Origin: Nocardia sp. NBC_00565
Lineage (GTDB): Bacteria; Actinomycetota; Actinomycetes; Mycobacteriales; Mycobacteriaceae
Direction of reading: 5' to 3'
DNA: 64,000 nucleotides
NCBI RefSeq assembly: GCF_036345915.1
Contig: NZ_CP107785.1
Coordinates: 7,688,001 to 7,752,000 of the forward strand
The first letter of the stretch is position 1, and every line of letters begins with the position of its first letter. Both the position numbers and the translations under genes were made by a program. The notes beneath the pieces are model-generated. The model was not told the DNA's origin. It worked only from the letters and a program-made list of their open reading frames with translations, and did no database searches. Shown here piece after piece: positions 2,786 to 57,028 of this stretch.

Positions 2786-4768
2786 GTGGAAGACCTGATC
2801 CTTAAGGCTGGCGATGACCTTGTCGCTCGCATAGCTCACGAGGGCGACCCAGTACGCGCCGTCGTCGAGCTTGTCTGGAACGCTATCGATGCCGAGGCCA
2901 CAACAGTCGCAGTCGAGTTGGAGCGCAACACGGCGGACGCGATCGCTGCCGTGCGCGTCGTGGATGACGGCCACGGAATCAGCTCCGACGAGGTGGAATC
3001 GACATTCGGCCGAATCGGCGATTCATGGAAGAAACGCACCGAGAAGACGAAGAACGGTCAGCGCTACCTGCACGGCAAGCTGGGCGAGGGGCGCCTGCGC
3101 GCCTTCGCTCTCGGGACCCGCGTCACCTGGGCCAGCGTGAGCAGCAACACCGCAGGGGTACGTCAAGAAGTGACGATTTCCGGCAGCCACAACAATCGGC
3201 ACGTCTTCCGATGGGATGCCGCCGCATCTGTTGTCCCTAGGACTGGTACGACGGTCACCATCCACAACGACCAACAGCGTTCACTCGCGGCACTGGAGGT
3301 AGACACTGCCCTCGCGACGCTTCGGTCGCACTTCGCTCCGATCCTGCTGAACGAGCAGACCAATCTGACGGTCACCTTCGACAAGACAACGCTCGATCCT
3401 TCCCAGGAAATGCTCCACGACAAACGTGTCCCGGTGAGCTTCGGCGACGGCACCACGAGCAACGAGGCGACTGTTCGGATCATCGAATGGCGATCCGGAA
3501 AGCACCGGGCCATCTACTTCGGTCCCGATGAAGACCACTTCCCGTACGAAGAATCCGGCAGCGATATCGAGGGACAGTTTGCTTATTCGGCGTATGTCAC
3601 CTGGCCGGGCCTGGGCACTGCTCAGCTCGCATTGCTCGGGCTCGGCGATATGGCGCCGGAGCCGGTCGGCGAGTTGTGGCAGGCGATCCGTAAGGCGATC
3701 CGTGAGCACTTCGCTGGGCGTCGGCGCGAACGCCGACGTGAGCAAGTCGATCAGTGGAAAGAAACGGGTGCCTACCCGTACCAGGGTGAACCTGCCAGTG
3801 AGCCTGAGCGGGCGGAACGGGCTGTCTTCGACGTCGTCTCAGGCACTCTCGTGCCGCACATCTCGAAGAACAAGAACGACGCCCGCCTGACCCTGGTGCT
3901 TCTCCGAGACGCGATACGTCACGACCCGGATCAGCTGACGACGATCCTGCACGAAGTCGTGTCCTTGAACGAGGCAGACCGTGACACCCTGACACGGCTG
4001 CTCAGCGAGACCACCTTGTCGGCAATTATCAGGTCGGCGAACCTGGTCACGAGTCGGCACAAGTTCCTAGCTGGGCTCCAACACCTCATTTTCGACCCCC
4101 GCGACGCGGGCCGCGTCGGTGAACGCGACCATCTCCACAAGATCTTGGAGCGAGAACTGTGGATCTTCGGCGAGGGCTATCACCTCATGAACAGCGAGCG
4201 GGGCCTCACCGAACTCCTGCGCACCCATCTCCTGCTCGAAGGGCTACCCGCCAGTGACGTTACGCCCGTCACGCGGTGGGATGGGACTAGCGGACGGGTC
4301 GACCTGCACCTCGCCGCGCAATACAAGGAGCACGACCGTATCCGGCATCTCGTGATCGAGCTCAAGGCCCCGAACGTCACGCTCACCCAGAAAGAGCTCA
4401 ATCAGCTCGAGGGCTATATCAACACGGTTCGCACCACCGCCGCCTTCGCCACTGACCGATCATCGTGGGATTTCATCCTCGTTGGGACGGATTTCGACGA
4501 CCTCGTCGACGACCGGATTCCGGAGCGGTACCGAGAAACTGGTCAGTTCCTATCGCCACCATCCAAGCCTGGCAGACCGCATGTACGAGGATTCGTGCGA
4601 CGGTGGCGGGACATCATCGACGAGAACAAGCGCCGATTGGACTTCGTTACGTCCACCCTTGAGCACGACCCGTCGATCACCGAGGGGCTGCAATATGTGC
4701 GCGCGGAGTATCGGGACCTGCTGCCGGCCTCTCTGCTCGAGTCTCAGCCGACCACACCTGCCGCGTAA
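2786..4768 (+). CDS. GHKL (Hsp90/MutL/MORC-like) ATPase fused to a PD-(D/E)XK-like domain
   Basis: A 660-residue protein, GTG start. The N-terminus is a complete Bergerat ATP-binding fold: E28 and N32 in ELVWNAID, DDGHG at 60-64, the glycine-rich lid HGKLGEG near 96-102, and a TGTTVTIHN strand near 154. The middle is unassigned. The C-terminal 170 residues contain GRVDLHL (about 504) followed by VIELKAP (about 522), which is the D...ExK spacing of a PD-(D/E)XK nuclease. MutL/MORC-like ATPases joined to nuclease modules are known near restriction systems in bacteria, and this gene lies between a Gabija-like pair and a type ISP enzyme. Inference: an ATP-gated nuclease of a defence system. I cannot match it to a named system. 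Confidence 0.75.
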   Translation: MEDLILKAGDDLVARIAHEGDPVRAVVELVWNAIDAEATTVAVELERNTADAIAAVRVVDDGHGISSDEVESTFGRIGDSWKKRTEKTKNGQRYLHGKLGEGRLRAFALGTRVTWASVSSNTAGVRQEVTISGSHNNRHVFRWDAAASVVPRTGTTVTIHNDQQRSLAALEVDTALATLRSHFAPILLNEQTNLTVTFDKTTLDPSQEMLHDKRVPVSFGDGTTSNEATVRIIEWRSGKHRAIYFGPDEDHFPYEESGSDIEGQFAYSAYVTWPGLGTAQLALLGLGDMAPEPVGELWQAIRKAIREHFAGRRRERRREQVDQWKETGAYPYQGEPASEPERAERAVFDVVSGTLVPHISKNKNDARLTLVLLRDAIRHDPDQLTTILHEVVSLNEADRDTLTRLLSETTLSAIIRSANLVTSRHKFLAGLQHLIFDPRDAGRVGERDHLHKILERELWIFGEGYHLMNSERGLTELLRTHLLLEGLPASDVTPVTRWDGTSGRVDLHLAAQYKEHDRIRHLVIELKAPNVTLTQKELNQLEGYINTVRTTAAFATDRSSWDFILVGTDFDDLVDDRIPERYRETGQFLSPPSKPGRPHVRGFVRRWRDIIDENKRRLDFVTSTLEHDPSITEGLQYVRAEYRDLLPASLLESQPTTPAA

Positions 4769-5214: not shown

Positions 5215-8200
5215 TCAATCCAGGATCTGTAGTGGCGGCAATCCGTCCACGACTTTCATGGTCTCCAGGCTGACAGTCACAATCCGCCGGATGAGGTCGA
5301 TGATGTACCGCGGATCGTCGGACCAGTCGTTGGGGTCGTTGACGATCTCCGACTCCTTGTCGACCTTGATTTGATACCGGTCGATGATCCACTCGATCGC
5401 AGAACGCGCTCCGAGCTGGTAGCGATACGCCTCCTCCGGAATATTGGTGAGGGTGACTCGACTGTTGTAGACGATCGTCGAACGATCTTGCTTTCCCTTC
5501 GCCTTGGGGATCTTCATCTTCGCGACCCTGTACAGCTCGTCGGCTTGGGTACTGGATGCGTCGCCGGTTACTTTCTCGACGATGCCCTTGTACGGCTCCG
5601 CCTGCTCATAGTTGATATGCAGGCTGGCGAGCTTCTGGCCAGCCTCGGCGAAGCCTCGAAAGTCGTCCACCTTGGGAATGCGAGGAAGGGACTTCTTTAG
5701 GTCAGCGGCGAAAAGATCGCGGTACTCGGCAGAGTGGAGCAGTCCATACGTGTAGTAGAAGATATCGTCCTTGCTGATTACCTCGTCGGCATAGACTGCA
5801 CGGTAGGACGCCAAGGCGGCATCGGTGATGTTGTCGACGCGCTCATAGCCACCTTCGCCCGCTGCTGCGAAAAGATCGTCGCCTTGGCCGAGCTTGCGGT
5901 AGGTGAAGCGGGGATAGAACTGTCCCGTACCCGATCCCCAAGTGGCGAGGTCAGGAACCTGGTCGACAGCTAACACGGAGAACGGCTTGCCACTGCCGGT
6001 ACCTGTCGCGTAGAAACCAAAATTCACTTCCGCCGGTGTTGGAAAGATCCTGGGCAGCTTGGACGTATCGTGTGTGAGTCGTGAATCGAAGTAACACCGC
6101 GTTTTGTTGAACGGACGGTAGGCGGCGATAGCAATAGCCTGCGGATTGAACTCGTACTTTTCGCCACGGGCCACTCGGGACTTGTCGGCCCGATTCCAGC
6201 TGATGCGCCGCGAGTCCATGTCGACCCACTGCTCGGCATCTTTAGCCGTTGGCGACATCAAACCTTGGGTTCGGCAGTGCTCACTAAACTCGTCGACCTG
6301 CCCGTTGTAGAAGTCAATAAGTGACTTCATATTTGTAGCGACCGTTTCGCCGGAAAAATTATAGATCCAGGTGTCACGAGCTGTATTCAACCCATAGGAG
6401 TAGACCGAGAAGACCGCATTCTGTCCGCGCACCTTATCCTTGTCGCTGATGGCCTGGAATGTTGCGAACTGATCGTCACGTTGATTGATCCAGTCGCCTT
6501 CGGCATTGGGAGTAATCTGTTCCCACGGTACGGTATCCAGACTCTGAGCGGCGATTGTGCGTAGCTTTTCGTCTCGGGTCCGGGCATCACCGATATCCCG
6601 GTAGTAAAGAGCGCAGCCTTCGCCCGCGGTGGCGCTCTTATCGCCTTTGACCAGTATCAGGATGGCGACTCCAGTTTGACTTCCTTCACCGAATACCTTT
6701 TCACCCTCCTTGCGCCAGTCGGTCCGCTGATTGCCTCGCAAGTTGTAGCAGTAGATCGCGTCGAACTCATCCACTAGCGACTTACGCAGTCCGTCTGTGC
6801 TTGTACCGTCGACATATCCGCTGTTAGATACAAAGGCGACAACACCTTCGTTTTTGATGCGGTCAGAAGCCCAGCGGATTGCGCGAATGTATGAGTCGTA
6901 GAGCTTGTTTTTGTTGCCAGCCACGGAGCCAGCTACATATGTCTCAGCGATACGACCGTCGAGATCCACATATTTTTGGTTCTGATTGTTGTCGTTGACA
7001 CTGTTCTGTCCCACCGAGTAAGGAGGGTTTCCGATAACGACACGAATGTTCTGCTTCTGCTGCTTCTTAGCGCGCGCACTGTTCCCCTCCATGACGTCCA
7101 TACCGTCAAGCTTCGCCGTGCCCTCGGCGAGTTGGAAGGTGTCCGTGAGCACGATGCCTTCGAAGGAGTTGTAATCACCGCCAGCAAGGTCATGGAAGGC
7201 CGCTTCGATGTTTATTGCGGCAATGTAGTACGCGAGGAGCACGATTTCGTTGGCGTGCAGTTCACTCGTGTACTTCCGCAGCAGGTCTTCTGGCTTGATG
7301 AGGCCGGATTGAAGGAGACGCACCGGAAAGGTGCCGGTTCCAACAAACGGGTCGATGATCTCGACACCTTCGTCCGAAAAGGAGTGACCGAGGTGTTTGA
7401 CCAAAGCCTGTTCTGTCGCGCGGAGCATGAAGTCGACGATTTCGATGGGGGTGTAGACAATACCGAGGGCGTCTGCAGTCTTGGGCAACGCGGTCTTGAA
7501 GAACTTGTCGTACAACTCGACGATAACGCGCTGGCGCCCTTCATGGTTGTCGATACCCTCAGCGCGAACCTTCACCGATTGGTAAAAGCCCTCCAAAGTC
7601 TTGGCCTCTGCGTCCAGACCCTGGTCGTCGAGGATGTCGAGCATCCGCTGCATGGCCTTGGAGACAGGGTTGTGCTCGGAGAAGCCGTAGTCCTTGAACA
7701 GGGCGTCGAAGACTGGCTTGGTGACGATGTGCTGGGCAAGCATGTCGATGGCGTCAGAATTGGTGACACCAGGATTAATTGTCTCGCGCAGCTCGCAGAC
7801 GAACTCTTCAAATGCCGTCTGCTTCTCGGGGATCGTCAGTGCTGCCTTGATGCGAGTGACGTGTCGGTCGGCGATCTGAGCGATGTCCTTGGCCCAGTCT
7901 TCCCAGTAGTGACGTTCGCCGACCTTGTCGACGATGCGGGCGTAGATGGCGTCGCGCCAGTCGCTGATGGAGAAGAGTGCGTCCTGGATGCCCTGGGCAC
8001 TCTGGGCTTCCTTGTCCTTGGCTGCTTGGCCGCTGTCGGAGGTGCTGGAGCCGTCCTTGTCGCCGATGGTCTCGTCGCTGGGGCCGATGTGGCCGATGCC
8101 GATCTTGTTGTCGGGCTTGTTCTTGTTCAGCTCGATCTGGTTGACGGTCGCGTTGAACCGGTCGTCGTGGGCGCGCAGAGCCTGAAGGACCTGCCACACG

Positions 8201-10074
8201 GTTTTGAACCGCTGGTTGTCGGCGAGCGCCTTCTCGGCTGGCATCCCGGCGGGGATGGCGACGGGCAGGATGATGTAGCCGTAGTTCTTGCCGGGGGCCA
8301 GGCGCATCACGCGGCCGACGGACTGGACGACGTCGACGACCGAGTTGCGGGGGTGCAGGAACAGGACAGCGTCCAGGCTGGGAACGTCAACACCCTCGGA
8401 CAGGCAGCGGGCGTTGGAGAGGATGCGCGCTTGATTTTGGCCCGGATCCTGTTTGAGCCAGTCGAGGAGCCGGTTGCGTTGCAGGGTGTTGAAGGTGCCG
8501 TCTACATGGTCGACCTCGCAGTGCAACAGGTCGTCGTCCGCATCGTCGTAGGCATCGACAACCTCGTTGAAGCGGGCGGCAATCTCCTTCGAATCAGCGA
8601 TGGAGCGAGCGAAGGCGACAGCCCGCTTCATCGGTGCCTCGCCCTCGGCGAAGCCGGAGCCGTCAGCGAAGGTGCCGGTGCGCTTGGCCATTGCGTTCCA
8701 GCAGCCGATGATCTTGGATGCGTCGTCGATGTTCAGCTCGGATCCGCTGGCGAGGCCCTTCTGGAGGGTCTTGGCGACGACGCCCTCGTCGATGGTGAGG
8801 ATCAGGACCTTATAGTCGGTGAGCAGGCCCTTTGCCACCGCTTTGCCGAAGCCCAGGCGGTGGAACTCCGGTCCGAACATCTTCTCGTCGTCCATCGAGG
8901 TCAGGACTGCGTCTGCGTTCTTCGCATCTGCCTTGGTGTCCTGGTTGTAGATGCGCGGGGTCGCTGTCATATAGAGGCGCCGGTCCGCACCGAGGTAGGT
9001 GTCGTCGTGGACCCTGACGAACGCCGACTCGTCGTTCCCTGCCAAAGTGACACCGGTCGTGCGGTGTGCCTCGTCGCACAGAATGAGATCGAAGCGTGCC
9101 AGCCCTTTCTTCTGTGCCTCAGCGACGGTGGCGATGGACTGGTAGGTCGAGAACACCACGGTCAGCCCAGCGGTCGACTCCACCGAGGCCATCTGCTGGA
9201 TCAGGCGGTCCGAGTCCGTGGTCGGTGGCAAAGCCAGGTCGTAGGTGGCCATGTCGTTGTCATCGCCCATAGTTTGCTGCTTGCCGACTTTTCGGTCGGA
9301 GCACACCGCAAAACCGCGCAGCGGAACCTCGGTCTCGAACGACCATTCACGCAGCGTCTGCGAGAGCAGAGCGATGGAAGGAACCAGAAACAGGATAGTT
9401 GTGTGGTCTCCCACCCCAGCCTCGGCGCGCTCCTGCTGCAGCCGCTCGACGATCTTCAGTCCGGTGAAGGTCTTGCCGGTGCCGCAAGCCATGATCAACT
9501 TGCCGCGGTTGTTGCTCGCGAATCCCGCGAAGACGTCGTCGATCGCGGCGTCCTGGTGCTTCCTCGGCTCCTTCTTCTTTTGCAGGCCCAGCTCGATGGG
9601 AGCACCAACTGCGGGGAGGTGCCACTCCACCGGACTGCTGGCAATCTGTGACAGCCCGAGGCGGGTGACAGGGATCTGTTGGTCGTTGAGGGCTGCCTCG
9701 GCGTGCACGCCCCACTTGTCGGTTGTCGAGATAATCATGCGGCGGGTGAAGCCACCCTTGCCGGACGCAGTGAAGAAGGAGTCGATGTCTTCTTTGCTGA
9801 CGGTGTACTGCGGCTCATAGAATTTGCACTGGATCGCGCAGAAGCCGCCCGTCTCCCGGTCCTGGGCAACCAGGTCGATCCCGGTGTCGCGCTTGTCGTC
9901 CTCGGCTCCGGGCCAGTCGGCCCACATCCACACCCGGCTGAACTGCTCGGTCCACTCCGGGTCCGTGCTGAGGTACTGCAGCATCAATTCCTCGAAGCGC
10001 GTACCGCGATCGCGATTCGAGGCGGAACCCTCGCGGATCGCCTTCAGAACGTCGTGCACCGTCGTCGTGGCCAC
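5215..10074 (-). CDS. type ISP restriction-modification enzyme (nuclease-helicase-methyltransferase-specificity)
   Basis: A single 1619-residue polypeptide, close in size to LlaGI/LlaBIII (about 1570). Residues 1-165 form an Mrr-like PD-(D/E)XK nuclease with TGIDLVAQD and IQCKFY. A superfamily 2 translocase follows: ACGTGKT near 200, DEAH near 335, TATP near 375, QSVGRVMR near 590. Then an N6-adenine methyltransferase with DPFVGTGTF near 910 and NPPYSVG near 1015. The C-terminal 500 residues fit a target-recognition region. These enzymes methylate one strand of an asymmetric site and cleave after translocation and collision, so no partner genes are needed. GTG start at 10074 with a GGGGAG site upstream. 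All catalytic motifs are present. Confidence 0.93.
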   Translation of the reverse strand: MATTTVHDVLKAIREGSASNRDRGTRFEELMLQYLSTDPEWTEQFSRVWMWADWPGAEDDKRDTGIDLVAQDRETGGFCAIQCKFYEPQYTVSKEDIDSFFTASGKGGFTRRMIISTTDKWGVHAEAALNDQQIPVTRLGLSQIASSPVEWHLPAVGAPIELGLQKKKEPRKHQDAAIDDVFAGFASNNRGKLIMACGTGKTFTGLKIVERLQQERAEAGVGDHTTILFLVPSIALLSQTLREWSFETEVPLRGFAVCSDRKVGKQQTMGDDNDMATYDLALPPTTDSDRLIQQMASVESTAGLTVVFSTYQSIATVAEAQKKGLARFDLILCDEAHRTTGVTLAGNDESAFVRVHDDTYLGADRRLYMTATPRIYNQDTKADAKNADAVLTSMDDEKMFGPEFHRLGFGKAVAKGLLTDYKVLILTIDEGVVAKTLQKGLASGSELNIDDASKIIGCWNAMAKRTGTFADGSGFAEGEAPMKRAVAFARSIADSKEIAARFNEVVDAYDDADDDLLHCEVDHVDGTFNTLQRNRLLDWLKQDPGQNQARILSNARCLSEGVDVPSLDAVLFLHPRNSVVDVVQSVGRVMRLAPGKNYGYIILPVAIPAGMPAEKALADNQRFKTVWQVLQALRAHDDRFNATVNQIELNKNKPDNKIGIGHIGPSDETIGDKDGSSTSDSGQAAKDKEAQSAQGIQDALFSISDWRDAIYARIVDKVGERHYWEDWAKDIAQIADRHVTRIKAALTIPEKQTAFEEFVCELRETINPGVTNSDAIDMLAQHIVTKPVFDALFKDYGFSEHNPVSKAMQRMLDILDDQGLDAEAKTLEGFYQSVKVRAEGIDNHEGRQRVIVELYDKFFKTALPKTADALGIVYTPIEIVDFMLRATEQALVKHLGHSFSDEGVEIIDPFVGTGTFPVRLLQSGLIKPEDLLRKYTSELHANEIVLLAYYIAAINIEAAFHDLAGGDYNSFEGIVLTDTFQLAEGTAKLDGMDVMEGNSARAKKQQKQNIRVVIGNPPYSVGQNSVNDNNQNQKYVDLDGRIAETYVAGSVAGNKNKLYDSYIRAIRWASDRIKNEGVVAFVSNSGYVDGTSTDGLRKSLVDEFDAIYCYNLRGNQRTDWRKEGEKVFGEGSQTGVAILILVKGDKSATAGEGCALYYRDIGDARTRDEKLRTIAAQSLDTVPWEQITPNAEGDWINQRDDQFATFQAISDKDKVRGQNAVFSVYSYGLNTARDTWIYNFSGETVATNMKSLIDFYNGQVDEFSEHCRTQGLMSPTAKDAEQWVDMDSRRISWNRADKSRVARGEKYEFNPQAIAIAAYRPFNKTRCYFDSRLTHDTSKLPRIFPTPAEVNFGFYATGTGSGKPFSVLAVDQVPDLATWGSGTGQFYPRFTYRKLGQGDDLFAAAGEGGYERVDNITDAALASYRAVYADEVISKDDIFYYTYGLLHSAEYRDLFAADLKKSLPRIPKVDDFRGFAEAGQKLASLHINYEQAEPYKGIVEKVTGDASSTQADELYRVAKMKIPKAKGKQDRSTIVYNSRVTLTNIPEEAYRYQLGARSAIEWIIDRYQIKVDKESEIVNDPNDWSDDPRYIIDLIRRIVTVSLETMKVVDGLPPLQILD

Positions 10075-11439: not shown

Positions 11440-12237
11440 ATGACCGAGCCACTGGAGAACCTCGAGCGCCACATCGACGGTCTTCGGACCGAGGTGCGTC
11501 GCGCGGCGATGTCCGGTGACTTGGTGCGTGCGCGGGAGTTGCGGGCAGATCTGCGTCGTGCAGAACGCGCATGGGATGAGGCCCTGGCTGCTCTGACCGC
11601 CCCGGAGGACGAGCCGGAAGATGCTCGCAAGCCGGTTTCGATCCTGCCGATTCGCGATCAGGTTCACCAAGCGCTGACCCTGTTGAGCGTGCCGTCGGCA
11701 CCGAAAATGATTGCGGCCGTGCAGGATGCGTTCTTTGCCGGAGAGCTGACCGGATCACAGCTGGCTAGCCTGCGACGAGATGAGGAACGCTCGTTCCGGT
11801 CCTCGCCGCATGCCCGCCCGTACTACCTATGTAGCGCCTTGGCTGCTGACCGCTTGGTATCGGCACGTGGGCTGGTGGCAGTGTCGACCTGGCCGTTGAA
11901 TCGCCGAGTCGTTGGTCCACTCAGCGCGCGTGTCGACTTCCTCATTTCGGCTGTCCAGGTCGCCGAGCAAATCGAACGGCTGCCGGAGCCGACGTTGCCC
12001 GCGTCGCGGTTGCTGTGGCGGTTCGCGACCAGCATTCCCGGCGCGGCAGCCTCTTTCGACGCTGTGGACCCGGCAACTGTGGCAGCGGCGGGGCGCTGCG
12101 AACTCGAGATCCACCGCGACGCCGATCGGACCCATCGCGAAGAGGCCGCGTCTCGAGCTCGAACTCAGCTGGACGAGATCGAGCAGATGTTCGGTTCGTC
12201 GCTGAAGGTTGTTTCTCGCTCTACAACTGCACACTGA
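11440..12237 (+). CDS. unknown protein with N-terminal coiled coil, possible winged helix
   Basis: First gene of the six-gene resection cluster, 265 residues. ATG at 11440 is preferred over the upstream TTG at 11395 because it follows the predicted promoter at the expected transcription start. Residues 1-50 are a charged helix rich in Arg, Glu and Leu. Residues 60-170 alternate helices with a stretch around TGSQLASLRRDEERSF that could be a winged-helix or other DNA-binding fold. The C-terminal 60 residues are again helical. No catalytic motif is visible. Its place at the head of the operon suggests a regulator or an adaptor for the nuclease-helicase proteins that follow. Function unknown. Confidence 0.75.
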   Translation: MTEPLENLERHIDGLRTEVRRAAMSGDLVRARELRADLRRAERAWDEALAALTAPEDEPEDARKPVSILPIRDQVHQALTLLSVPSAPKMIAAVQDAFFAGELTGSQLASLRRDEERSFRSSPHARPYYLCSALAADRLVSARGLVAVSTWPLNRRVVGPLSARVDFLISAVQVAEQIERLPEPTLPASRLLWRFATSIPGAAASFDAVDPATVAAAGRCELEIHRDADRTHREEAASRARTQLDEIEQMFGSSLKVVSRSTTAH

Positions 12238-12265
12238 TCGAGTTACCAGTCACACTTCCTTATCC

Positions 12266-13423
12266 ATGCTTGCTTCCGTTGTGAAGGAAGATCTATTGAA
12301 CGACACCGATTTTCGGTTGGATGTCATTCGCGGGCAGGTCGTGCCGAAGAAGCACAATGCCAGGACGATTGCCGCGTTGACGAGTAATCCCGGCTGTGCC
12401 CGCCGGGCAGTTTTGGATGCGTCCTCGGTCGATAAGCAGGCTTTGGCTGAGCACATCGGCTATCCTGCGCCGTTCGGTATTTCACCGTTCGGCCTTGCCC
12501 GCGGCAATGCCTTCGAGGCATACGTCAAGGCCAACGGATGCGCCGAATTGCTGCGGCTGCTGCGAGAACGTCTTGGTCTGCCGCTGCCCGAGGTGGCCTA
12601 CGACGATCTCAATAGCGTGGCCGGCCACGAGACGCTCGAGGCGCGTCATCTCCGGTCGCGCCAGTTGCTGGCGCGCGCCGCCCGCTCCGGTGAGGACTCA
12701 GGCACCCTGTTCGATCACCCGTTGCTGCGGATGACCATCGCGGGCCGCGAGGTCTATCTGGAACCGGACCTCGTCGCGTTTCGGTTGCGGGACCAGTTCC
12801 ACGTCGTGGAGATCAAGTCGTTTCCGATCATCGACGGGCGAGCGGACCCCAGTAAGGTCGCGGCTGCGGCTACACAGTCGGCAGTGTATGTCTTGGCGCT
12901 GCGTCGGTTGTTGCAGCAACTCGGTGTGGACCCGGCGATGGTGTCGCATGAAGTGTTCCTGGTGTGCCCGGAGGACTTTTCGAACCGGCCGACGGCGGCG
13001 CGGATCGATGTCCGCAAGCAGCTGACGGTCCTCGAGCGGCAGCTCGCACGGATTGCCGACGTCGCGACGGTGGTGTCGACGCTGCCGGTGGGATTCACGC
13101 TCGATCTTCGTTTCGACGACGGCGGTGTGGCGACTCGGGCGGTCGGCGAGCTGTGCGAGGCGTTGGAGCTGGTGCCTGCACGGTATGCGCCGGAGTGTCT
13201 GGCCGCCTGCGAGATGGCGTTCTTCTGCCGCTCCGGTGCTTGCGGACACACCGCAGCGCTCGGCCGCTCGGTTCAGGAGGACCTCGGTGGTATCGAGACT
13301 GTCACTGCGGCAATCGGTTTGGCCTCTGGCGTGATTCCGCCCGGTGAGCACGAACGTGAGGCCGCCGAGGTGTTGCGGATGGCCGATCTCCTGCGCCATC
13401 AGTGCCTGAACGGTGCCGCATGA
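12266..13423 (+). CDS. Cas4/AddB-like Fe-S PD-(D/E)XK nuclease
   Basis: A 385-residue protein. The nuclease core is EPDLV near 165-169, VVEIKSF near 179-185 and AAATQSAVY further on, giving the D...ExK...Q order of RecB/Cas4 nucleases. One cysteine at about residue 43 (NPGCARRA) and three or four in a C-terminal cluster (C311, C315, C322, C326) fit the split 4Fe-4S binding site of Cas4, AddB and the Dna2 nuclease domain. I start it at ATG 12266, after the preceding stop, rather than at 12209. It ends in a 4-bp ATGA overlap with the next gene. Likely a single-strand DNA exonuclease working with the helicase and SbcCD encoded downstream. The family call is good, the substrate is inferred. Confidence 0.8.
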   Translation: MLASVVKEDLLNDTDFRLDVIRGQVVPKKHNARTIAALTSNPGCARRAVLDASSVDKQALAEHIGYPAPFGISPFGLARGNAFEAYVKANGCAELLRLLRERLGLPLPEVAYDDLNSVAGHETLEARHLRSRQLLARAARSGEDSGTLFDHPLLRMTIAGREVYLEPDLVAFRLRDQFHVVEIKSFPIIDGRADPSKVAAAATQSAVYVLALRRLLQQLGVDPAMVSHEVFLVCPEDFSNRPTAARIDVRKQLTVLERQLARIADVATVVSTLPVGFTLDLRFDDGGVATRAVGELCEALELVPARYAPECLAACEMAFFCRSGACGHTAALGRSVQEDLGGIETVTAAIGLASGVIPPGEHEREAAEVLRMADLLRHQCLNGAA

Positions 13424-14898
13424 GTACCCTCACCTCACTGGCGCGCGCGTACGCCGTCGACCGTGATTGCGCGCAGCCGATTACCACGGTCCGACATGTC
13501 CATATCAGTGACCGGCCGATGGTGTGTGTACCGCTGACCTTGGCGGGCGAGGCGAACGCACCGCTGGCCGTCATGGTCGGCGTGGACCGCGACGCACCGC
13601 GTTTGTGGGTGGTTCCGCAGCCTCGCGACCGGAACCTGCGGATCGAGTTCGCCCAGCACTTCGCGATGGCATTGCTGCACTACTGTGCGACGTATGTGGG
13701 TTCGACTGGTGGCAAGGCCGGTTCGTGCGCCGACGACGCACCGCAACTGTGGGTGCCCAACCGAGCCGGGATCGGTTTCCTGAACCTATTGGGGCGTTCC
13801 ACGCGGTTTCGTTCGACGACCGGCCCGCATGCTGTCGGTGTCGCCGTGCCCCGATTGGGTACCTGGCTGACCTTTTTCGCCGAGCAAGCCGAGCATCCTG
13901 GGTCATCGCTGCTGATGGCGGCGACCGATGCTCTGGGCCAGCATTGGGCGACCGGGCAGAGCGGGCTCGAGGACGGAAACCTTGCTGCCCTGTTGGGGTG
14001 GATCGAACCGCACTCGGGCTCCGGCGGCGCGCAGTCCGCGCTCGAGGCCGAAGATCCCCTGCTATGGCCACCGGCAGGGCCCACGACCGATCCGATGTTC
14101 GATCGAGAGGTTTTGGCGCCCAGCATCGTTGAGTATGATCGCGCCTCCAGCGACCACGAGCGCCGACGAGCAATCACTCGCATCGAAACCGCGGTGCGTA
14201 GCCAACTCGTCCCGACCTGGCAGCTGATGTGGCGTGCCGTCGACCAGCTGCGGTGCGTTCGACCGGGCGCTCATGTCGCGCAACGGTGGGCGAAGGACAT
14301 CGACGCGTTCCAGAAGTTCAACACCCATGTGGCCGCGGGAGGGCGGCCACAGCCCAAACGAGACAGCGCGGTAGCTGCGGCGCATCGGCTCAATTGGCTC
14401 GAACGTCTGCAAGCAGAGTACGACGCACAACGTGCTTTCGACGACCCCCTTGTTATGGCCGAATTCCGGCTGACCGGTGAAGCTTTCGCCGGTGTCGTCA
14501 CCGCGGTGGCCTCTGACCGGCGCGTCGGATCGGGACGTCAGGCCGTGTTGCGGCCTGTGATCACGGTTCTCACCCAGGATCCGGTGCGGCTGGTTCCTGG
14601 CGACGGGCCCCTGACCGATTCCACGCGTCCGCGTCAGCAAGCGACCGTCGTGTCGATCGATGAGGTGCCCCACGGGTTGGAGGTCACACTCGAGCTTGCC
14701 GGGGGAATGGGCCGCAGCCGGATCGCTCCGGTCGGCAGCATCCCCGCTGTCAACGAGCGTGTCTGCTTCAGCACCCTCAGCGACTCCTATCAGCCACGTG
14801 GATCATTTCCCACCCGGGATAGCACGCCATGGACCCATGGTGGCCCACCAACTGAGCCGACCCCCACCAGCAACGATGCGAACGAGGACTGGTCGTGA
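13420..14898 (+). CDS. unknown 492-residue protein of the resection cluster
   Basis: ATG at 13420 overlaps the nuclease stop by four bases, and its own stop overlaps the helicase start by four bases, so production of all three is tightly coupled. The N-terminal half has alternating strands and small hydrophobic helices; the centre (about 240-340) is helical and charged; the C-terminal 120 residues are strand-rich (for example RQAVLRPVITVLTQ) and could be an OB-like or other beta domain, followed by a Pro/Thr-rich tail. I see no ATPase, nuclease or helix-turn-helix motif. By position it may hold nuclease and helicase together or guide them to DNA. Function unknown. Confidence 0.75.
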   Translation: MSTLTSLARAYAVDRDCAQPITTVRHVHISDRPMVCVPLTLAGEANAPLAVMVGVDRDAPRLWVVPQPRDRNLRIEFAQHFAMALLHYCATYVGSTGGKAGSCADDAPQLWVPNRAGIGFLNLLGRSTRFRSTTGPHAVGVAVPRLGTWLTFFAEQAEHPGSSLLMAATDALGQHWATGQSGLEDGNLAALLGWIEPHSGSGGAQSALEAEDPLLWPPAGPTTDPMFDREVLAPSIVEYDRASSDHERRRAITRIETAVRSQLVPTWQLMWRAVDQLRCVRPGAHVAQRWAKDIDAFQKFNTHVAAGGRPQPKRDSAVAAAHRLNWLERLQAEYDAQRAFDDPLVMAEFRLTGEAFAGVVTAVASDRRVGSGRQAVLRPVITVLTQDPVRLVPGDGPLTDSTRPRQQATVVSIDEVPHGLEVTLELAGGMGRSRIAPVGSIPAVNERVCFSTLSDSYQPRGSFPTRDSTPWTHGGPPTEPTPTSNDANEDWS

Positions 14899-16208
14899 CA
14901 ACCGATACCGCCACCGCCGCCGAGGCAGTCATCGCCGCTGTTTTGTCCGATTTCACCGTAGGTGCCCATCGTGGTGTCGTCGTTGACTCTCCGCCCGGGG
15001 CGGGCAAATCGAGTTTGGTTGTCCGGGCAGCCATCCATATTGCGCAGGCGCAGGATCGCGTCATGGTCGTCGCTCAAACCAACGAGCAGGTCGACGATCT
15101 GGTCGACCGCATGGCGCGCGAGGCCCCGACGGTACGAATAGGCAGGCTCTCCGCGAACAGCTATGTTCCTGCCACACGAGTCTTGCACCCCAATGTTGTT
15201 GTTGCCGAGCAAGTCTCGCGCCTGAGTGACACGCAAATCACCATCGGGACCGCAGCGAAATGGGTGCACGTCACCGGCGATCCGTGGCCGTGGGCCATCA
15301 TCGACGAGGCATATCAGATGCGCTCGGACATGCTGCTGCGGGTGGCCCCGCGGTTCCAGCGGGCCCTGTTCGTCGGCGACCCCGGCCAGCTCGACCCATT
15401 CTCGACCATCGAGGTCAACCGCTGGGCTGGACTGACGTGGGACCCGATGCAAAGCGCGGTCGCGGCGATGCTGCGCAACAACCCCAATCTGCCCGTCCAC
15501 CAGTTGCCGGTGTCCTGGCGTCTGCCTGCATCTGCCGCACCCGTCGTGTCCTCGGCGTTCTACCCGTTCACCGGATTTCGTGCCGCCACGACTGCCGACC
15601 AACGACACCTCAGCTTCCAGACCCGCGGATTCGGCGGCCCTGTCGATGACACTCTGGAGCTGGCTGCCCGGACCGGATGGGCGTTGCACGAACTCCCCGC
15701 CAGGCACACGCTGCGCACCGATACCGAAGCAGTACAGGCGATTACCGAACTGGCCGCGCGGGTGCTCGAACGCGGGGGTGTCGCCTGTTCCGAACGCAAC
15801 CCCGACGGGACGGCGGTGACCGCCGAGCGGATCGCCATCGGTGCCGCGCACCGCGATCAGGTTGCGGCGATCCGGCAAGCGCTCCACAGCTGCGGCGCCG
15901 ATTCGGTCCGCGTCGACACCGCAAATCGCCTCCAGGGCAGCGAATACGACCTCGTGCTGGTTCTGCATCCGCTATCGGGACGCCGTGACGCCACCGCGTT
16001 CCACCTCGAGTCCGGGCGTCTGTGCGTGCTCACCTCACGCCACCGCCACGCCTGCATCGTGGTCGCCCGCGCCGGTATCCAAGAACTACTCGACGCACAC
16101 CCGCCCAGTGAACCAATGCACCTGGGCGTACCCGCCAAGTTCCCCGACGGCTGGGAAGCAAACCAAGCCATGCTCACCCATCTGCGCTCCGTCCGCGTCG
16201 CACGGTAA
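14895..16208 (+). CDS. superfamily 1 helicase, Dna2/Upf1-like
   Basis: A 437-residue protein, GTG start in a GTGA overlap. Motif I SPPGAGKSS at 32-40, motif II IIDEAYQM near 135, motif III VGDPGQLDPF near 158, motif IV region SWRLP near 208, motif V ANRLQGSEYDLVLVL near 343 and motif VI LTSRHRHACIV near 380. The order and the DEAY/GDPGQL forms place it with the SF1B Dna2/Upf1-like group. It is minimal, with no fused nuclease. The separately encoded Cas4-like protein two genes upstream could supply that part, so the pair looks like a split Dna2. Expected to unwind DNA ends for resection. Confidence 0.85.
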   Translation: MTTDTATAAEAVIAAVLSDFTVGAHRGVVVDSPPGAGKSSLVVRAAIHIAQAQDRVMVVAQTNEQVDDLVDRMAREAPTVRIGRLSANSYVPATRVLHPNVVVAEQVSRLSDTQITIGTAAKWVHVTGDPWPWAIIDEAYQMRSDMLLRVAPRFQRALFVGDPGQLDPFSTIEVNRWAGLTWDPMQSAVAAMLRNNPNLPVHQLPVSWRLPASAAPVVSSAFYPFTGFRAATTADQRHLSFQTRGFGGPVDDTLELAARTGWALHELPARHTLRTDTEAVQAITELAARVLERGGVACSERNPDGTAVTAERIAIGAAHRDQVAAIRQALHSCGADSVRVDTANRLQGSEYDLVLVLHPLSGRRDATAFHLESGRLCVLTSRHRHACIVVARAGIQELLDAHPPSEPMHLGVPAKFPDGWEANQAMLTHLRSVRVAR

Positions 16209-16299
16209 GCCCCACCGACGCTTACCTGCGTCGGTGAACCCTGCTCGATCGCTCCATCCCACTGCGGTAGCCCCCGCCAGCACATCCTTGGAAGAGATC

Positions 16300-17562
16300 A
16301 TGAGAGTTCTGCACACATCCGACTGGCATCTCGGGAAAATCCTCTACAAGCACTCCCGCGCCGAAGACCACGACATCGTCTTGGCCGAGATCATCGACGT
16401 CGCCCGCAAACGCGAGCCGCACCTGATCGTGCATACGGGTGACCTGTTCGATCACGCTCGCCCGGCCTACCCCGATCTGAGGAAGGCCATCACCGCTCTC
16501 AAAGAGCTCGCAGCGGTGGCACCGGTAGTCGTGGTCCGTGGCAACCACGACTCACCCCAGCTGTTCCAGCTCTTCTCAGAAACTCTCGCCCCCGACAGCC
16601 GGATCTATTTCATCGACAGCCCGCGAGACCCGAAAGATGGTGGAGTACTTTACTTTCCCGGCCCTGACAACACGGTGTTGCGGTTGGGTGTCCTGCCGTT
16701 CATACCGGCCAGCCACCACATCGACGGATTCGATGACCCCGACCGATGGCATTCCGCCTATGCCCAGGCCGTGGGCAAAATGGAGCGCGATCTAGCCGAG
16801 GAACTGCTGCGCGACTTCGACGACAGCCGCGACATCGCCATGTTCGCCGCGCACCTGCACATCGGCGGGGCCAACCTCGCCCGCAGTGAACGCCCGGCCC
16901 ATACCTCCGACTACTACGCCACCAACCCAGACGATCTCCCCTCTGTCGCCTACGCAGCGTTCGGGCATATCCACAAACCCCAGCCGCTACCCAACACCAA
17001 CGTCACCGGACGCTATGCGGGATCGCCGATCCCGCTCGACTTCGGCGAATGCGGAGAACGCAAAAGCGTCGTCATGGTCGAGCTGCACCCCGGACAGCCA
17101 GCCCAAGTCGACCTCGTCGGGCTCAGCGGCGGCCGACCGCTGCGGCGCTTCGAGGGCACCCTCGAGCAGCTGCGCGTCGAGGCACCCTCGATCGGTCGGG
17201 AACTGTGCCTGATCACCATTCACACCCCAACCCACGAACCGACATTGTCCGAACAGGTTCGAGCCCTGCTGCCCCGCGCGACGGTCCTCGATGTGTACGA
17301 AGACTGCGCCGACCAGAAACTGGAAATACTCACCCAGGACACCGTCACCGACGATGCCGAACCCGACCTCCGTGAGTTGTTCCGCGACTACCTCACCGTC
17401 CGCGGCAGCAGCACAGTCCCAGCCGAGCACCTGCACAGCAAGTTCGGCCAGATACTCACCAGCCTTGAGGAAGAACGCCCCCTCGTGTTGCCCGAAGAAG
17501 ACCTCCTGACAGATCCACCCGACATCGATACCGAGTTTTCGACCGGAAGGGACGAACGATGA
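16300..17562 (+). CDS. sbcD: SbcD/Mre11-type nuclease
   Basis: A 420-residue protein starting at ATG 16300 after a GGAAGAG site; the longer in-frame extension back to 15841 is a shadow of the helicase gene. All metallophosphoesterase motifs are present: SDWHLGK at 7-13, HTGDLFDH near 49, RGNHDSPQ near 79, AAHLH near 186 and GHIHKP near 225. The C-terminal third is the variable capping region. Mre11/SbcD uses two Mn ions for 3'-5' exonuclease and endonuclease cutting of ends and hairpins when held by SbcC. Length fits the family (about 400). Overlaps sbcC by four bases (ATGA). Confidence 0.95.
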   Translation: MRVLHTSDWHLGKILYKHSRAEDHDIVLAEIIDVARKREPHLIVHTGDLFDHARPAYPDLRKAITALKELAAVAPVVVVRGNHDSPQLFQLFSETLAPDSRIYFIDSPRDPKDGGVLYFPGPDNTVLRLGVLPFIPASHHIDGFDDPDRWHSAYAQAVGKMERDLAEELLRDFDDSRDIAMFAAHLHIGGANLARSERPAHTSDYYATNPDDLPSVAYAAFGHIHKPQPLPNTNVTGRYAGSPIPLDFGECGERKSVVMVELHPGQPAQVDLVGLSGGRPLRRFEGTLEQLRVEAPSIGRELCLITIHTPTHEPTLSEQVRALLPRATVLDVYEDCADQKLEILTQDTVTDDAEPDLRELFRDYLTVRGSSTVPAEHLHSKFGQILTSLEEERPLVLPEEDLLTDPPDIDTEFSTGRDER

Positions 17563-20500
17563 GACCTCTGACACTAAAGTTCAAGGGCCTGCGCACCTAC
17601 CGGGCAGAGCAAGAGATCGACTTCACCGATGTGCGCTTGATGGCGATCATCGGCGACACCGGCGCCGGAAAATCCTCGATACTCGAGGCTTTGTGCTTCG
17701 CCTTGTATGGCGGACCGACCTGGAACACCAAAGCTGCCAAATCACTCATCGCCGACGGCGGCGACGGGACAGTCCGGGCCGAACTGACCTTCCAGGCCAA
17801 CGGCAAGACGTGGCGAGTCACCCGAACCACATCCGCCAAACCCTATCCACCAGCGAACCACCACCTCACCTGCTTGGACGACGACACCCCTGACCTCGAC
17901 ACCGCACACGCTGTCAACGCTCAGATCGAGAACCTCGTCGGTCTCGACTACCCGGCATTCCTCAAAGCCGTTGTCCTGCCACAAGGACGTTTCCAAGACC
18001 TGCTGCGCGCAAACGAAGCCGACCGGACGCCCATCCTCAAAGCAGCCCTCGGGCTCGAGCAGATCACCGAAATCCGCGACCGGGCCAGAGCAAAATACGA
18101 CCAGCTGCTCCCCGGCCTGATCAATCTCCAACAACAACGCAGCAGCCTCATCCCAGACCCCGACCGCGTCATTCACGAAACAACATGCGCGCTGTCAAAA
18201 CTCGCAGAGGAGATCACCGCCCTCAACCACGCAGGAAAGAAACATGCTGAGGCCCTGACAGTTCACACCGAGGCGACACGGCGAGCCAGCGAATTCCGTT
18301 CGACTGCAACGCAGTTGGACGACAAGGTGCCCAACGCAATGACGGAGCAGTATCAACAGCTGATCGAACTGGGCTCCCAACTGGCCGCTGAGCTCTCGGC
18401 AATCGAAGAACAATCGACCGAAGCCGCCGCACACGAGGAACAACTCCAGACCGTTCTCGATGATGCCCAGCGCGACGGAATCGGAACCTCGGATGCCGCC
18501 GCGCTGCTCGCGACGCTGCGCTCACTCCTCGACCAGCTTCCACAGATCCAGTCAGACCACGTGCGCCTCCATACCCAGGCGGCAGCCATCGAGGCTGAAC
18601 GAGCGCAGCTCGAAGATCGCAAACATGTCCACGCCGTACTGGCGCACCAAAGCCAACAGGCGGAGTCACTGGCGACCAGAACCGATTCCGACCTACTCAA
18701 CGCCACGAAAACCCTTCAGCTGCAACGATCGTTGCTGCGCGATGTGCGAGTCGCGGCACAGAACACCGCCGCAGCTTCGACTCACGAATGCACTACTCGC
18801 CGTGCTGTGCAGCGCAATGCCGAAGCTCTGACCGACGCCCGGCATGCGTCGGCTCGAGCCGACGAACACGTCGATCATGCCGAGGGGATCTTGGCCGCTG
18901 CGAACCGGAAGAACTCCGCAGCCCACGCTGCTGCGCACCACGGGCCTGGTGACCCCTGCCCTGTGTGCGTGCGGCCTCTGCCCAACGACTTCCAAGCGCT
19001 CATGGCCACCGACATCGCTGAAGCCAAACTCGAGGTGACCAAGGCGAAACAGCGCGCAAAAACTGCGGCGCAAAAGCTCACCACCGCCGAGGCAGCCCAC
19101 AGCACCACCCAGGCAAATCTGGCTACAGCCGTCACTGCCACAGAAACCACGGTTAACGAGTACAACACCGCGATCGAGGCGCTCGGTGCTGTCCTCGAAA
19201 GCATTGACCTCGACAAACCCGACGACACGCTGCTTGCCGCAACCCAATACACGGTCCACGAGGCAGAGACCGCCAAGAAGCAAGCCCAGGACGCCGCCAA
19301 GGCAGCTCTGGTCGCCCAGACACAGGACAAAGCTGAGATCACCAGTACAGAAACGGGACTGACGAACCGTCAGCAAGAACTGGCGAAATCCCTCAAAGCG
19401 CTGGACCGACGACGCACAGCTGCGCTCAGGTCCTATGACAGAGTCCCAACCAGGTACCGAATCAGCGACGACCTGAGCGATACCTCCATAAACCACGCGA
19501 TTGGCCTTCTCGAACCCCACCAGCGCCGACTCACCGACACCGAAGCGACACTGAAATCCGCACGGGAACACAGCAAAAGACTGCGCGACACCAAAGACAC
19601 CCTCACCGCGTCCATTCACAACAAGATCGACAAGCCCGCCACACGGCTAGCGCGAACAATCCACGCCCTGGCCGACCGCGCCGAAACGACAACACATCTG
19701 ACCAACCCCATCCCGCTACCGCACCGCCCAGAACCCCCGACCGTAACAACCGACGCTCAGTGGGCTAGGGAAGTCACCGCCGCGGTTCGACAGATCATTC
19801 AAGGGTGCAACACGGCGGCAGCGGCTCACGACGAGATCGCCATCAACGCACGAACATCCATGACTAGCGCACTCGCTGACATCGACGTCAACAGCCGGGA
19901 GCAGCTGACCGAACAGCTGGTCGATACGCGGGCACGCGTGCTCAAAGCACAAGAGTCGCAAACCAAAGCCCGCACCGACAAACCACTTCGTGCGGAGTTC
20001 GACCGGCGTATCACGGGCATCGAACCAGCGATCGAAAGCCTCAAGGAACTCACAGCCCTGCTCTCCGACGGCAAGTTCATGGCAGCCGCCGTCAAACGTC
20101 GACAACGGGCCCTACTCGGCATCGCCTCAGGTGTCCTGGCTGACATGACCCACGATCGTTTCGCCTTCTCCGACGACTTCCGCATCATCGACAACCACAC
20201 CGGACAGCCGCGCCACGTCAAAACCCTGTCCGGCGGTGAAACGTTCCTCGCCAGCCTGGCCTTGGCGCTAGCCCTTGTCGAGCTCACCTCACGCGGCGGC
20301 GGGCGGATCGAAGCCCTGTTCCTCGATGAAGGATTCGGATCACTCGACGCAAACGCACTCAACGAAGCCATGGAAGCCCTCACACGCCAAGCCGCTAGCG
20401 GCCGACTGGTCGCTGTCATCACCCACATGCGAAGTGTCGCTGAGAATTTCGACAACATCCTGGTAGTCGGCAAGTCGCTCGGCGGCAGCCAAGCCCATTG

Positions 20501-20564
20501 GGCAACTCCAGGCGAACGCGACACGATGATCACCGACGGGCTTACCGGAGGGCTACTGGAATAG
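17559..20564 (+). CDS. sbcC: SbcC/Rad50-type ATPase
   Basis: A 1001-residue SMC-like protein. Walker A GDTGAGKSS at 31-39, long coiled-coil arms broken by a zinc hook CPVC near 466-469, then the C-terminal signature LSGGETF near 891 and Walker B LFLDEGFGSLD near 922. This is the full Rad50/SbcC plan at normal length. It forms a heterotetramer with SbcD that clamps DNA ends and gates the nuclease with ATP. Actinobacteria normally carry a chromosomal sbcCD. Here the pair closes a cluster that also encodes a Cas4-like nuclease and an SF1 helicase, which is unusual. Confidence 0.95.
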   Translation: MRPLTLKFKGLRTYRAEQEIDFTDVRLMAIIGDTGAGKSSILEALCFALYGGPTWNTKAAKSLIADGGDGTVRAELTFQANGKTWRVTRTTSAKPYPPANHHLTCLDDDTPDLDTAHAVNAQIENLVGLDYPAFLKAVVLPQGRFQDLLRANEADRTPILKAALGLEQITEIRDRARAKYDQLLPGLINLQQQRSSLIPDPDRVIHETTCALSKLAEEITALNHAGKKHAEALTVHTEATRRASEFRSTATQLDDKVPNAMTEQYQQLIELGSQLAAELSAIEEQSTEAAAHEEQLQTVLDDAQRDGIGTSDAAALLATLRSLLDQLPQIQSDHVRLHTQAAAIEAERAQLEDRKHVHAVLAHQSQQAESLATRTDSDLLNATKTLQLQRSLLRDVRVAAQNTAAASTHECTTRRAVQRNAEALTDARHASARADEHVDHAEGILAAANRKNSAAHAAAHHGPGDPCPVCVRPLPNDFQALMATDIAEAKLEVTKAKQRAKTAAQKLTTAEAAHSTTQANLATAVTATETTVNEYNTAIEALGAVLESIDLDKPDDTLLAATQYTVHEAETAKKQAQDAAKAALVAQTQDKAEITSTETGLTNRQQELAKSLKALDRRRTAALRSYDRVPTRYRISDDLSDTSINHAIGLLEPHQRRLTDTEATLKSAREHSKRLRDTKDTLTASIHNKIDKPATRLARTIHALADRAETTTHLTNPIPLPHRPEPPTVTTDAQWAREVTAAVRQIIQGCNTAAAAHDEIAINARTSMTSALADIDVNSREQLTEQLVDTRARVLKAQESQTKARTDKPLRAEFDRRITGIEPAIESLKELTALLSDGKFMAAAVKRRQRALLGIASGVLADMTHDRFAFSDDFRIIDNHTGQPRHVKTLSGGETFLASLALALALVELTSRGGGRIEALFLDEGFGSLDANALNEAMEALTRQAASGRLVAVITHMRSVAENFDNILVVGKSLGGSQAHWATPGERDTMITDGLTGGLLE

Positions 20565-57005: not shown

Positions 57006-57028
57006 GGTCTTCTCCAGCACCTATCGGC

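Follow-up and report, generated by a model that had tools for sequence, protein, structure and literature searches.

A probable split DNA2-like enzyme, recurrent in actinomycetes, with a dedicated SbcCD pair in its mobile form

In eukaryotes, the helicase-nuclease DNA2 is partnered by the Mre11-Rad50 complex. Bacterial DNA2-like enzymes have been called rare, and for Bad, the enzyme of Geobacillus, both its role and its central domain, which has no counterpart in eukaryotic DNA2, are left unexplained; a type III-like methyltransferase adjoins bad, and the authors suggest a restriction role (PMC7430649). Here, we describe a locus of six genes, A to F, in a 64,000-nucleotide stretch (the window) of Nocardia sp. 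NBC_00565, whose genome is a single 9.71-Mb contig (NZ_CP107785.1) with the window at positions 7,688,001–7,752,000. Genes B, C and D probably constitute a split DNA2-like enzyme resembling Bad, and E and F are an SbcCD pair. The split enzyme is recurrent, and in its mobile form it comes with a dedicated SbcCD.

The initial annotation had described six genes read in one direction and joined by 4-bp overlaps. All six are co-directional on the + strand (11440–20564) and open throughout, with zero internal stops; the overlaps are present at three of the five junctions (B/C, C/D and E/F), but A and B are separated by 58 bp and D and E by 91 bp. None of A, B and C exceeds the curated cut-off of any Pfam or NCBIfam model or has a PADLOC match at E ≤ 1. 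The six genes, with protein lengths in amino acids (aa), are as follows:

Gene A, 11440–12237, + strand: 265 aa, ATG start; mostly helical protein with no assigned family
Gene B, 12296–13423, + strand: 375 aa, TTG start; Cas4/AddB/DNA2-type iron-staple PD-(D/E)XK nuclease
Gene C, 13420–14898, + strand: 492 aa; probably the front (N-terminal) half of a helicase of the Upf1/DNA2 type
Gene D, 14895–16208, + strand: 437 aa, GTG start; two-RecA-domain core of a superfamily 1B (SF1B, Upf1/DNA2-like) helicase
Gene E, 16300–17562, + strand: 420 aa; SbcD/Mre11-type nuclease
Gene F, 17559–20564, + strand: 1001 aa; SbcC/Rad50-type ATPase

The assignment of B as a Cas4-like iron-sulfur nuclease was borne out. 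Its start, the TTG after GAAGGAAG, was chosen by comparison with its relatives. The protein carries the PD-(D/E)XK motifs (LEPD, EIK and QxxxY) together with four invariant cysteines, a combination upheld in an alignment of 127 rows of 340–420 aa (the window included; 17 of the 144 rows were of other length and were omitted). C48, D172, Y212, C315, C319 and C325 occur in all 127 rows, Q208 in 126, K188 in 125 and E186 in 124, where the numbers refer to the 389-aa frame and are lowered by 14 for the TTG start. With its four spaced cysteines, B is an iron-staple nuclease of the RecB family, as are the enzymes AddB, DNA2, Cas4 and Bad for which the pattern has been reported (PMC7430649). A PDB profile search with B returned no nuclease, and the matches it gave were apparently spurious.

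Gene D encodes the motor. It scores above the cut-off for AAA_11 and AAA_12, which makes it an SF1 helicase, and also for AAA_30, AAA_19 and the NAT10/TcmA helicase, with the IGHMBP2 family and UvrD_C_2 below the cut-off; its core is of the Upf1-like SF1B kind found in DNA2 and Bad. Compared with single-chain DNA2-like proteins, D matches their helicase part (HHalign 99.6%, E 4.6e-24). HHalign gave no significant result for B or C against the same proteins, and anchoring C on D changed nothing; the likeness of these two to DNA2-type enzymes rests on motifs, fold and gene order. By fold comparison only, residues 349–457 of C form a 1B-type beta-barrel resembling that of Upf1/DNA2-type helicases, and it lies between nuclease and motor, as in DNA2 and Bad. 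Residues ~31–300 tentatively have an RNase H/DnaQ-like fold, which is probably non-catalytic, and residues ~225–352 are long helices. Among 13 matches, six other proteins carry C and D in one chain (the four that are named are all from Streptomyces or Streptoverticillium), and none of the same 13 is an intact B-C-D single chain. From the Upf1/DNA2-type barrel and the six natural C-D chains, C probably supplies the front half that the helicase D lacks. The split Dna2-like nuclease-helicase proposed in the initial annotation, which had counted C as a protein without a family, is thereby strengthened.

Among the other joined proteins, P0124 has a complete C joined to part of D. Four more (P0121, P0129, P0130 and P0131) probably reflect frame-shifted gene calls and were discarded, as were P0132 (a D piece with GmrSD) and P0133 (a D piece with SbcC), which may be either assembly joins or real fusions.

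Protein A begins with a helical hairpin (residues 3–53), and most VIA rows align solely to this region (1–63). The best Foldseek match had an E of only 1.1, and the winged helix suggested earlier, which would lie in the middle of the protein, is possible but could not be confirmed.

How widespread is the set? A search with C found 3748 relatives at E ≤ 0.001 (7998 candidates scored). C occurs in 22 of 60 related genomes (one a contig-edge scrap), in 48 of 296 genomes of the class and, in a draw of 149 genomes across the phylum, in six (one match very weak), the host's own genome being included each time. In a tree of C, rows from same-genus genomes group with Nocardia rhizosphaerihabitans. Three 'plasmid' records, one of them 11.85 Mb long, also match. 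We collected 143 loci, 80 plus 3 from plasmids plus 60 from genomes; because the 80 are the best of 582, the locus counts lean towards close relatives, and they include duplicates (C is identical in L048 and L163, and in L059 and L165). Within the stretches taken around these loci, B accompanies C at 143/143, D at 123/143 and A at 93/143. The association of B with C is not due to chance, since both stand together at every locus. Where B and C were found by themselves, D lay 36–50 kb away in both genomes tested. A had no match in the two Streptomyces and two Micromonospora-like genomes searched. Odd arrangements like A>B>D>C> arise from the sorting of stop-to-stop frames. Weak D pieces with stops were seen at G018:C17:23037-23889, in a same-genus genome without C.

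These counts bear on the earlier proposal that all six genes form one unit, which had been staked on the nuclease, helicase and companion genes not being scattered without SbcCD in most genomes. The stretches of 131 of the 143 B-C(-D) loci are indeed free of SbcCD, but the genes are not scattered, and 11 of the 12 SbcD compared belong to one accessory lineage. With B-C at 143/143 loci against SbcCD at 12/143, the six-gene unit is rejected, and the actual unit is (A)-B-C-D.

The identities of E and F were confirmed. E passes the NCBIfam sbcd model (TIGR00619; 128.5 bits, cut-off 77.65) with its phosphoesterase motifs intact (DWH, GDLFD, GNHD, AHLH and GHIH). The best match of F is sbcc (TIGR00618; 197.8 bits, E 2.7e-58, below the cut-off of 478.5), and its motifs are complete: Walker A, a CPVC zinc hook, an SGGE signature and LDE at 922, with the Walker B glutamate intact. 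The pair is not the host's sole copy, an idea rejected because another sbcD scores above the cut-off elsewhere in the genome, as the initial annotation had asked to be checked. A second SbcD above the cut-off was likewise present in 5/5 linked genomes tested, whereas three unlinked genomes had one SbcD each. Linked SbcD proteins, that of L035 excepted, are 22–27% identical to the chromosomal SbcD of the same host.

Among the 12 loci where SbcCD adjoins A-D (13 of 144 with the window), six have the window's order, five have E-F divergent, and in L087 the pair is divergent and broken. At four further loci (L014, L017, L049 and L058), a divergent SbcC-like frame (80–534 bits) lies upstream of A with no SbcD; these were excluded from the linked count.

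We built an SbcD tree from 50 rows, with the window included and L087 left out for its broken SbcCD; 30 of the chromosomal rows are the best matches of 98 genomes rather than a random set. Of the 12 linked SbcD in this tree, 11 fall into one clade (100/98), and the chromosomal SbcD that their own genomes carry (L001, L252, L255, L256 and L257) lie apart from it. The twelfth, from L035, groups with unlinked SbcD of G049, G114 and G130 (L228, L224 and L222); at the tree's deepest split, all four fall on the side of the linked rows, with a long-branch warning. A single clade of all 12, and with it a single origin of all SbcCD links, was rejected by the approximately unbiased test (p-AU 0.014; the same long-branch warning applies). 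In the C tree, with 46 of the 131 unlinked rows picked by hand, L035 lies inside a supported group (100/97) of otherwise unlinked rows. Placing the other 12 linked rows in a single clade was not rejected (p-AU 0.080), so that all linkages except that of L035 may go back to a single early event. L035 itself seems to have recruited SbcCD separately. Because it falls apart from the other linked rows in both trees, SbcCD seems to have joined the split DNA2-like enzyme at least twice. The SbcD of G049, G114 and G130 also mark out a second lineage of chromosomal SbcD among actinomycetes.

The surroundings agree with the mobile setting and defence neighbours noted in the initial annotation. The six genes are surrounded by the following features of the window:

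110–2104, − strand: OLD-like ATPase matching GajA (5.4e-48), with AAA_15 above the cut-off and a weak TOPRIM
2786–4765, + strand: GHKL (HATPase_c_3) protein with a weak HSDR_N_2 piece, unmatched in PADLOC at 1e-20; perhaps a defence gene not described before
5218–10074, − strand: Type ISP restriction-modification enzyme, 1619 aa
24956–59661: weak ParB match, TrwC relaxase and TraG/TraD-like coupling protein
41716–44385, + strand: alanyl-tRNA synthetase, on or beside the element
48348–57020, − strand: 2891-aa protein with weak superfamily 2 helicase matches only

Since TrwC, TraG/TraD-like, ParB, GajA-like, Type ISP and GHKL genes surround the locus, the window likely carries a conjugative, defence-bearing element.

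Linked copies elsewhere have more restriction-type neighbours than controls. In the flanks of 11 linked loci, 67 open reading frames (ORFs) give matches to 150 PADLOC models at E ≤ 1e-12; in those of 11 unlinked loci, 103 ORFs match 49. All loci on both sides were hand-picked, ORF calling relied on a crude rule of composition, and many models are redundant. The top 25 matches of the linked flanks include mad2, Type I and II methyltransferases, JetC and Type IIG, and Pfam adds one each of BrxC/D, SWI2/SNF2 and nSTAND3; the unlinked flanks include matches to Wadjet type III and to Type II/IV restriction. An alanyl-tRNA synthetase is also one of the 67 linked flank ORFs. In a Streptomyces locus without SbcCD (L128, 4180–7716, − strand), an HmaA-type helicase (1290.7 bits) stands beside an accessory A-B-C-D.

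Could these proteins work together on DNA ends? The explanation that we favour, with a probability of roughly 60%, is that A-D would be a multi-subunit DNA2-like helicase-nuclease, with A as an accessory subunit, and that a minority of copies, the window's among them, would work with their own SbcCD, likely on invading or competing DNA. It starts from the observed gene content, motifs, C-D chains, recurrent linkage, SbcD lineage and defence-rich setting; the activities, the polarity and a hand-over between the two machines are suggested by the protein families. SbcCD targets DNA termini, and TelN must protect hairpin telomeres from it (PMC12624138). In the window, SbcCD would recognise DNA ends, hairpins or protein-blocked ends and make the entry cut or trim them. 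C and D would act as one 5'-to-3' SF1B helicase, C supplying a degenerate RNase H-like scaffold and the barrel and D the two motors; this helicase would load at the opened end and unwind it 5' to 3'. The iron-sulfur nuclease B, docked on C-D, would cut the single strand ahead of the motor, which is where the nuclease lies in DNA2 (PMC4716839) and Bad (PMC7430649). The end would be degraded or resected, as by eukaryotic Mre11-Rad50 and DNA2. We thus infer a resection or degradation machine, and the pairing with SbcCD points to a bacterial counterpart of the Mre11-Rad50/DNA2 partnership. For the accessory form, on a mobile element with defence-rich flanks, the target would be invading or competing DNA; that it is foreign DNA is a guess from the setting. 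The chromosomal copies without SbcCD may serve repair, possibly together with the ordinary SbcCD acting in trans.

A defence role is plausible, if putative, and its main rival is housekeeping repair, in which A-D would serve chromosomal end resection or replication repair, and the linked copies would mend or finish the DNA of the mobile element with the defence genes as cargo. Several observations fit. Within Actinomadura, Nonomuraea and Micromonospora, unlinked copies of the module are repeatedly flanked by the same gene families, as are, judged by eye, three Streptomyces loci; a long-established set of chromosomal genes would look like this. Streptomyces alone accounts for 26 of the 48 class genomes that have C, and C had no match in phage records, while none of 15 viral contigs fitting a pattern was confirmed. 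However, C is absent from 248 of the 296 class genomes, so that the module is not general housekeeping, the flanks of linked copies are richer in defence-type genes than those of the controls, and the five linked genomes tested already possess another SbcD. We consider repair as the whole explanation doubtful. An equally tentative reading takes all six genes as a bacterial Mre11-Rad50/DNA2 immune machine. Its mobile SbcCD would sense abnormal ends (those of phages, the hairpin- or protein-capped telomeres that linear plasmids have, and termini created by Wadjet or restriction enzymes) and pass them on to the split DNA2, which would degrade the molecule completely; the chromosomal form of the enzyme, which lacks SbcCD, would carry out ordinary repair in spore-forming actinomycetes.

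Rather improbable, in our estimate, is competition between elements, with the six genes directed, like Wadjet, only at rival plasmids or conjugative elements and not at phages; SbcCD would sense relaxase- or Wadjet-type ends, and B-C-D would clear the linear product. The conjugation genes of the window fit this, as do the jetABCD genes that directly follow D on two Streptomyces plasmids (L086, 15764–22426; L087, 7362–14021) and occur also in L008. Nevertheless, Jet queries from these plasmids matched near only 3 of the 12 linked loci (and 0 of 131 unlinked ones), leaving nine unmatched, and JetA-D of L086 had no tblastn match in the window.

The reading of A-D and E-F as separate operons that lie side by side by chance, for which the 91-bp gap and the occurrence of both orientations might speak, is rejected as very improbable, because SbcCD adjoins A-D at 13 of 144 loci, 11 of the 12 SbcD form one clade, which spans both orientations, L035 repeats the window's gene order through an apparently separate recruitment, and 5/5 genomes have an ordinary SbcD too.

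The split form is frequent in Streptomyces- and Micromonospora-type actinomycetes, and it suggests what the middle part of DNA2-like enzymes is, namely an RNase H-like scaffold plus the helicase barrel. It also makes testable whether, and for what, a bacterial Mre11-Rad50/DNA2 partnership exists.

How does the locus compare with known systems? Searches of an open-licence literature library yielded no description of the six-gene set. Other Cas4-like/helicase pairs, unlike this set, are described in PMC5704561, and PMC10693628, PMC12839542 and PMC10853773 proved unrelated to it. The locus differs from AddAB, RecBCD and AdnAB in that D is not of the UvrD type (SF1A). With Wadjet and Lamassu, it shares an ATPase of the structural maintenance of chromosomes (SMC)/Rad50 type, a nuclease and defence settings (PMC10586767), and F matches PADLOC LmuB models at 3.9e-22; however, LmuB generally has the Walker B glutamate changed to glutamine (PMC10586767), whereas F retains LDE, and JetABCD are unmatched in the window. 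With ordinary SbcCD, E and F share the catalytic motifs, the zinc hook and the paired genes, but they belong to the accessory lineage.

The TM0106 family (TIGR03491) also combines a nuclease with RNase_H_2, and its long actinomycete members add an SF1B helicase, but in a single chain; the model had no match to A-E at E ≤ 1. It scores above the cut-off in 31 of 118 class genomes and spans the front part of both long proteins tested. RNase_H_2 precedes an AAA_11/AAA_12 helicase in three of the four long proteins scanned (L198, at 336–513, L203 and L209) and was not found in the fourth, the host's own L217. If these proteins are orthologous to Bad, this RNase_H_2 may be the unexplained central domain of Bad. 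The host contig also encodes a TIGR03491 protein, in a 650-aa frame at 7634287, and a 1192-aa frame at 6011479 that has AAA_12 and matches the model more weakly.

Eukaryotic DNA2 has the same layout of nuclease, barrel-stalk and helicase 1A/2A (PMC4716839), but here the genes are split, and an extra RNase H-like domain and protein A are present; no N-terminal OB (oligonucleotide/oligosaccharide-binding) domain was noticed, although no dedicated search was made. Bad stands closest, by its description: an iron-staple nuclease is followed by a central domain and an SF1B helicase, in one monomeric chain (PMC7430649). In the window, nuclease and helicase are not fused, and the same order is spread over three genes (two where C and D are joined), to which A is often, and SbcCD sometimes, added.

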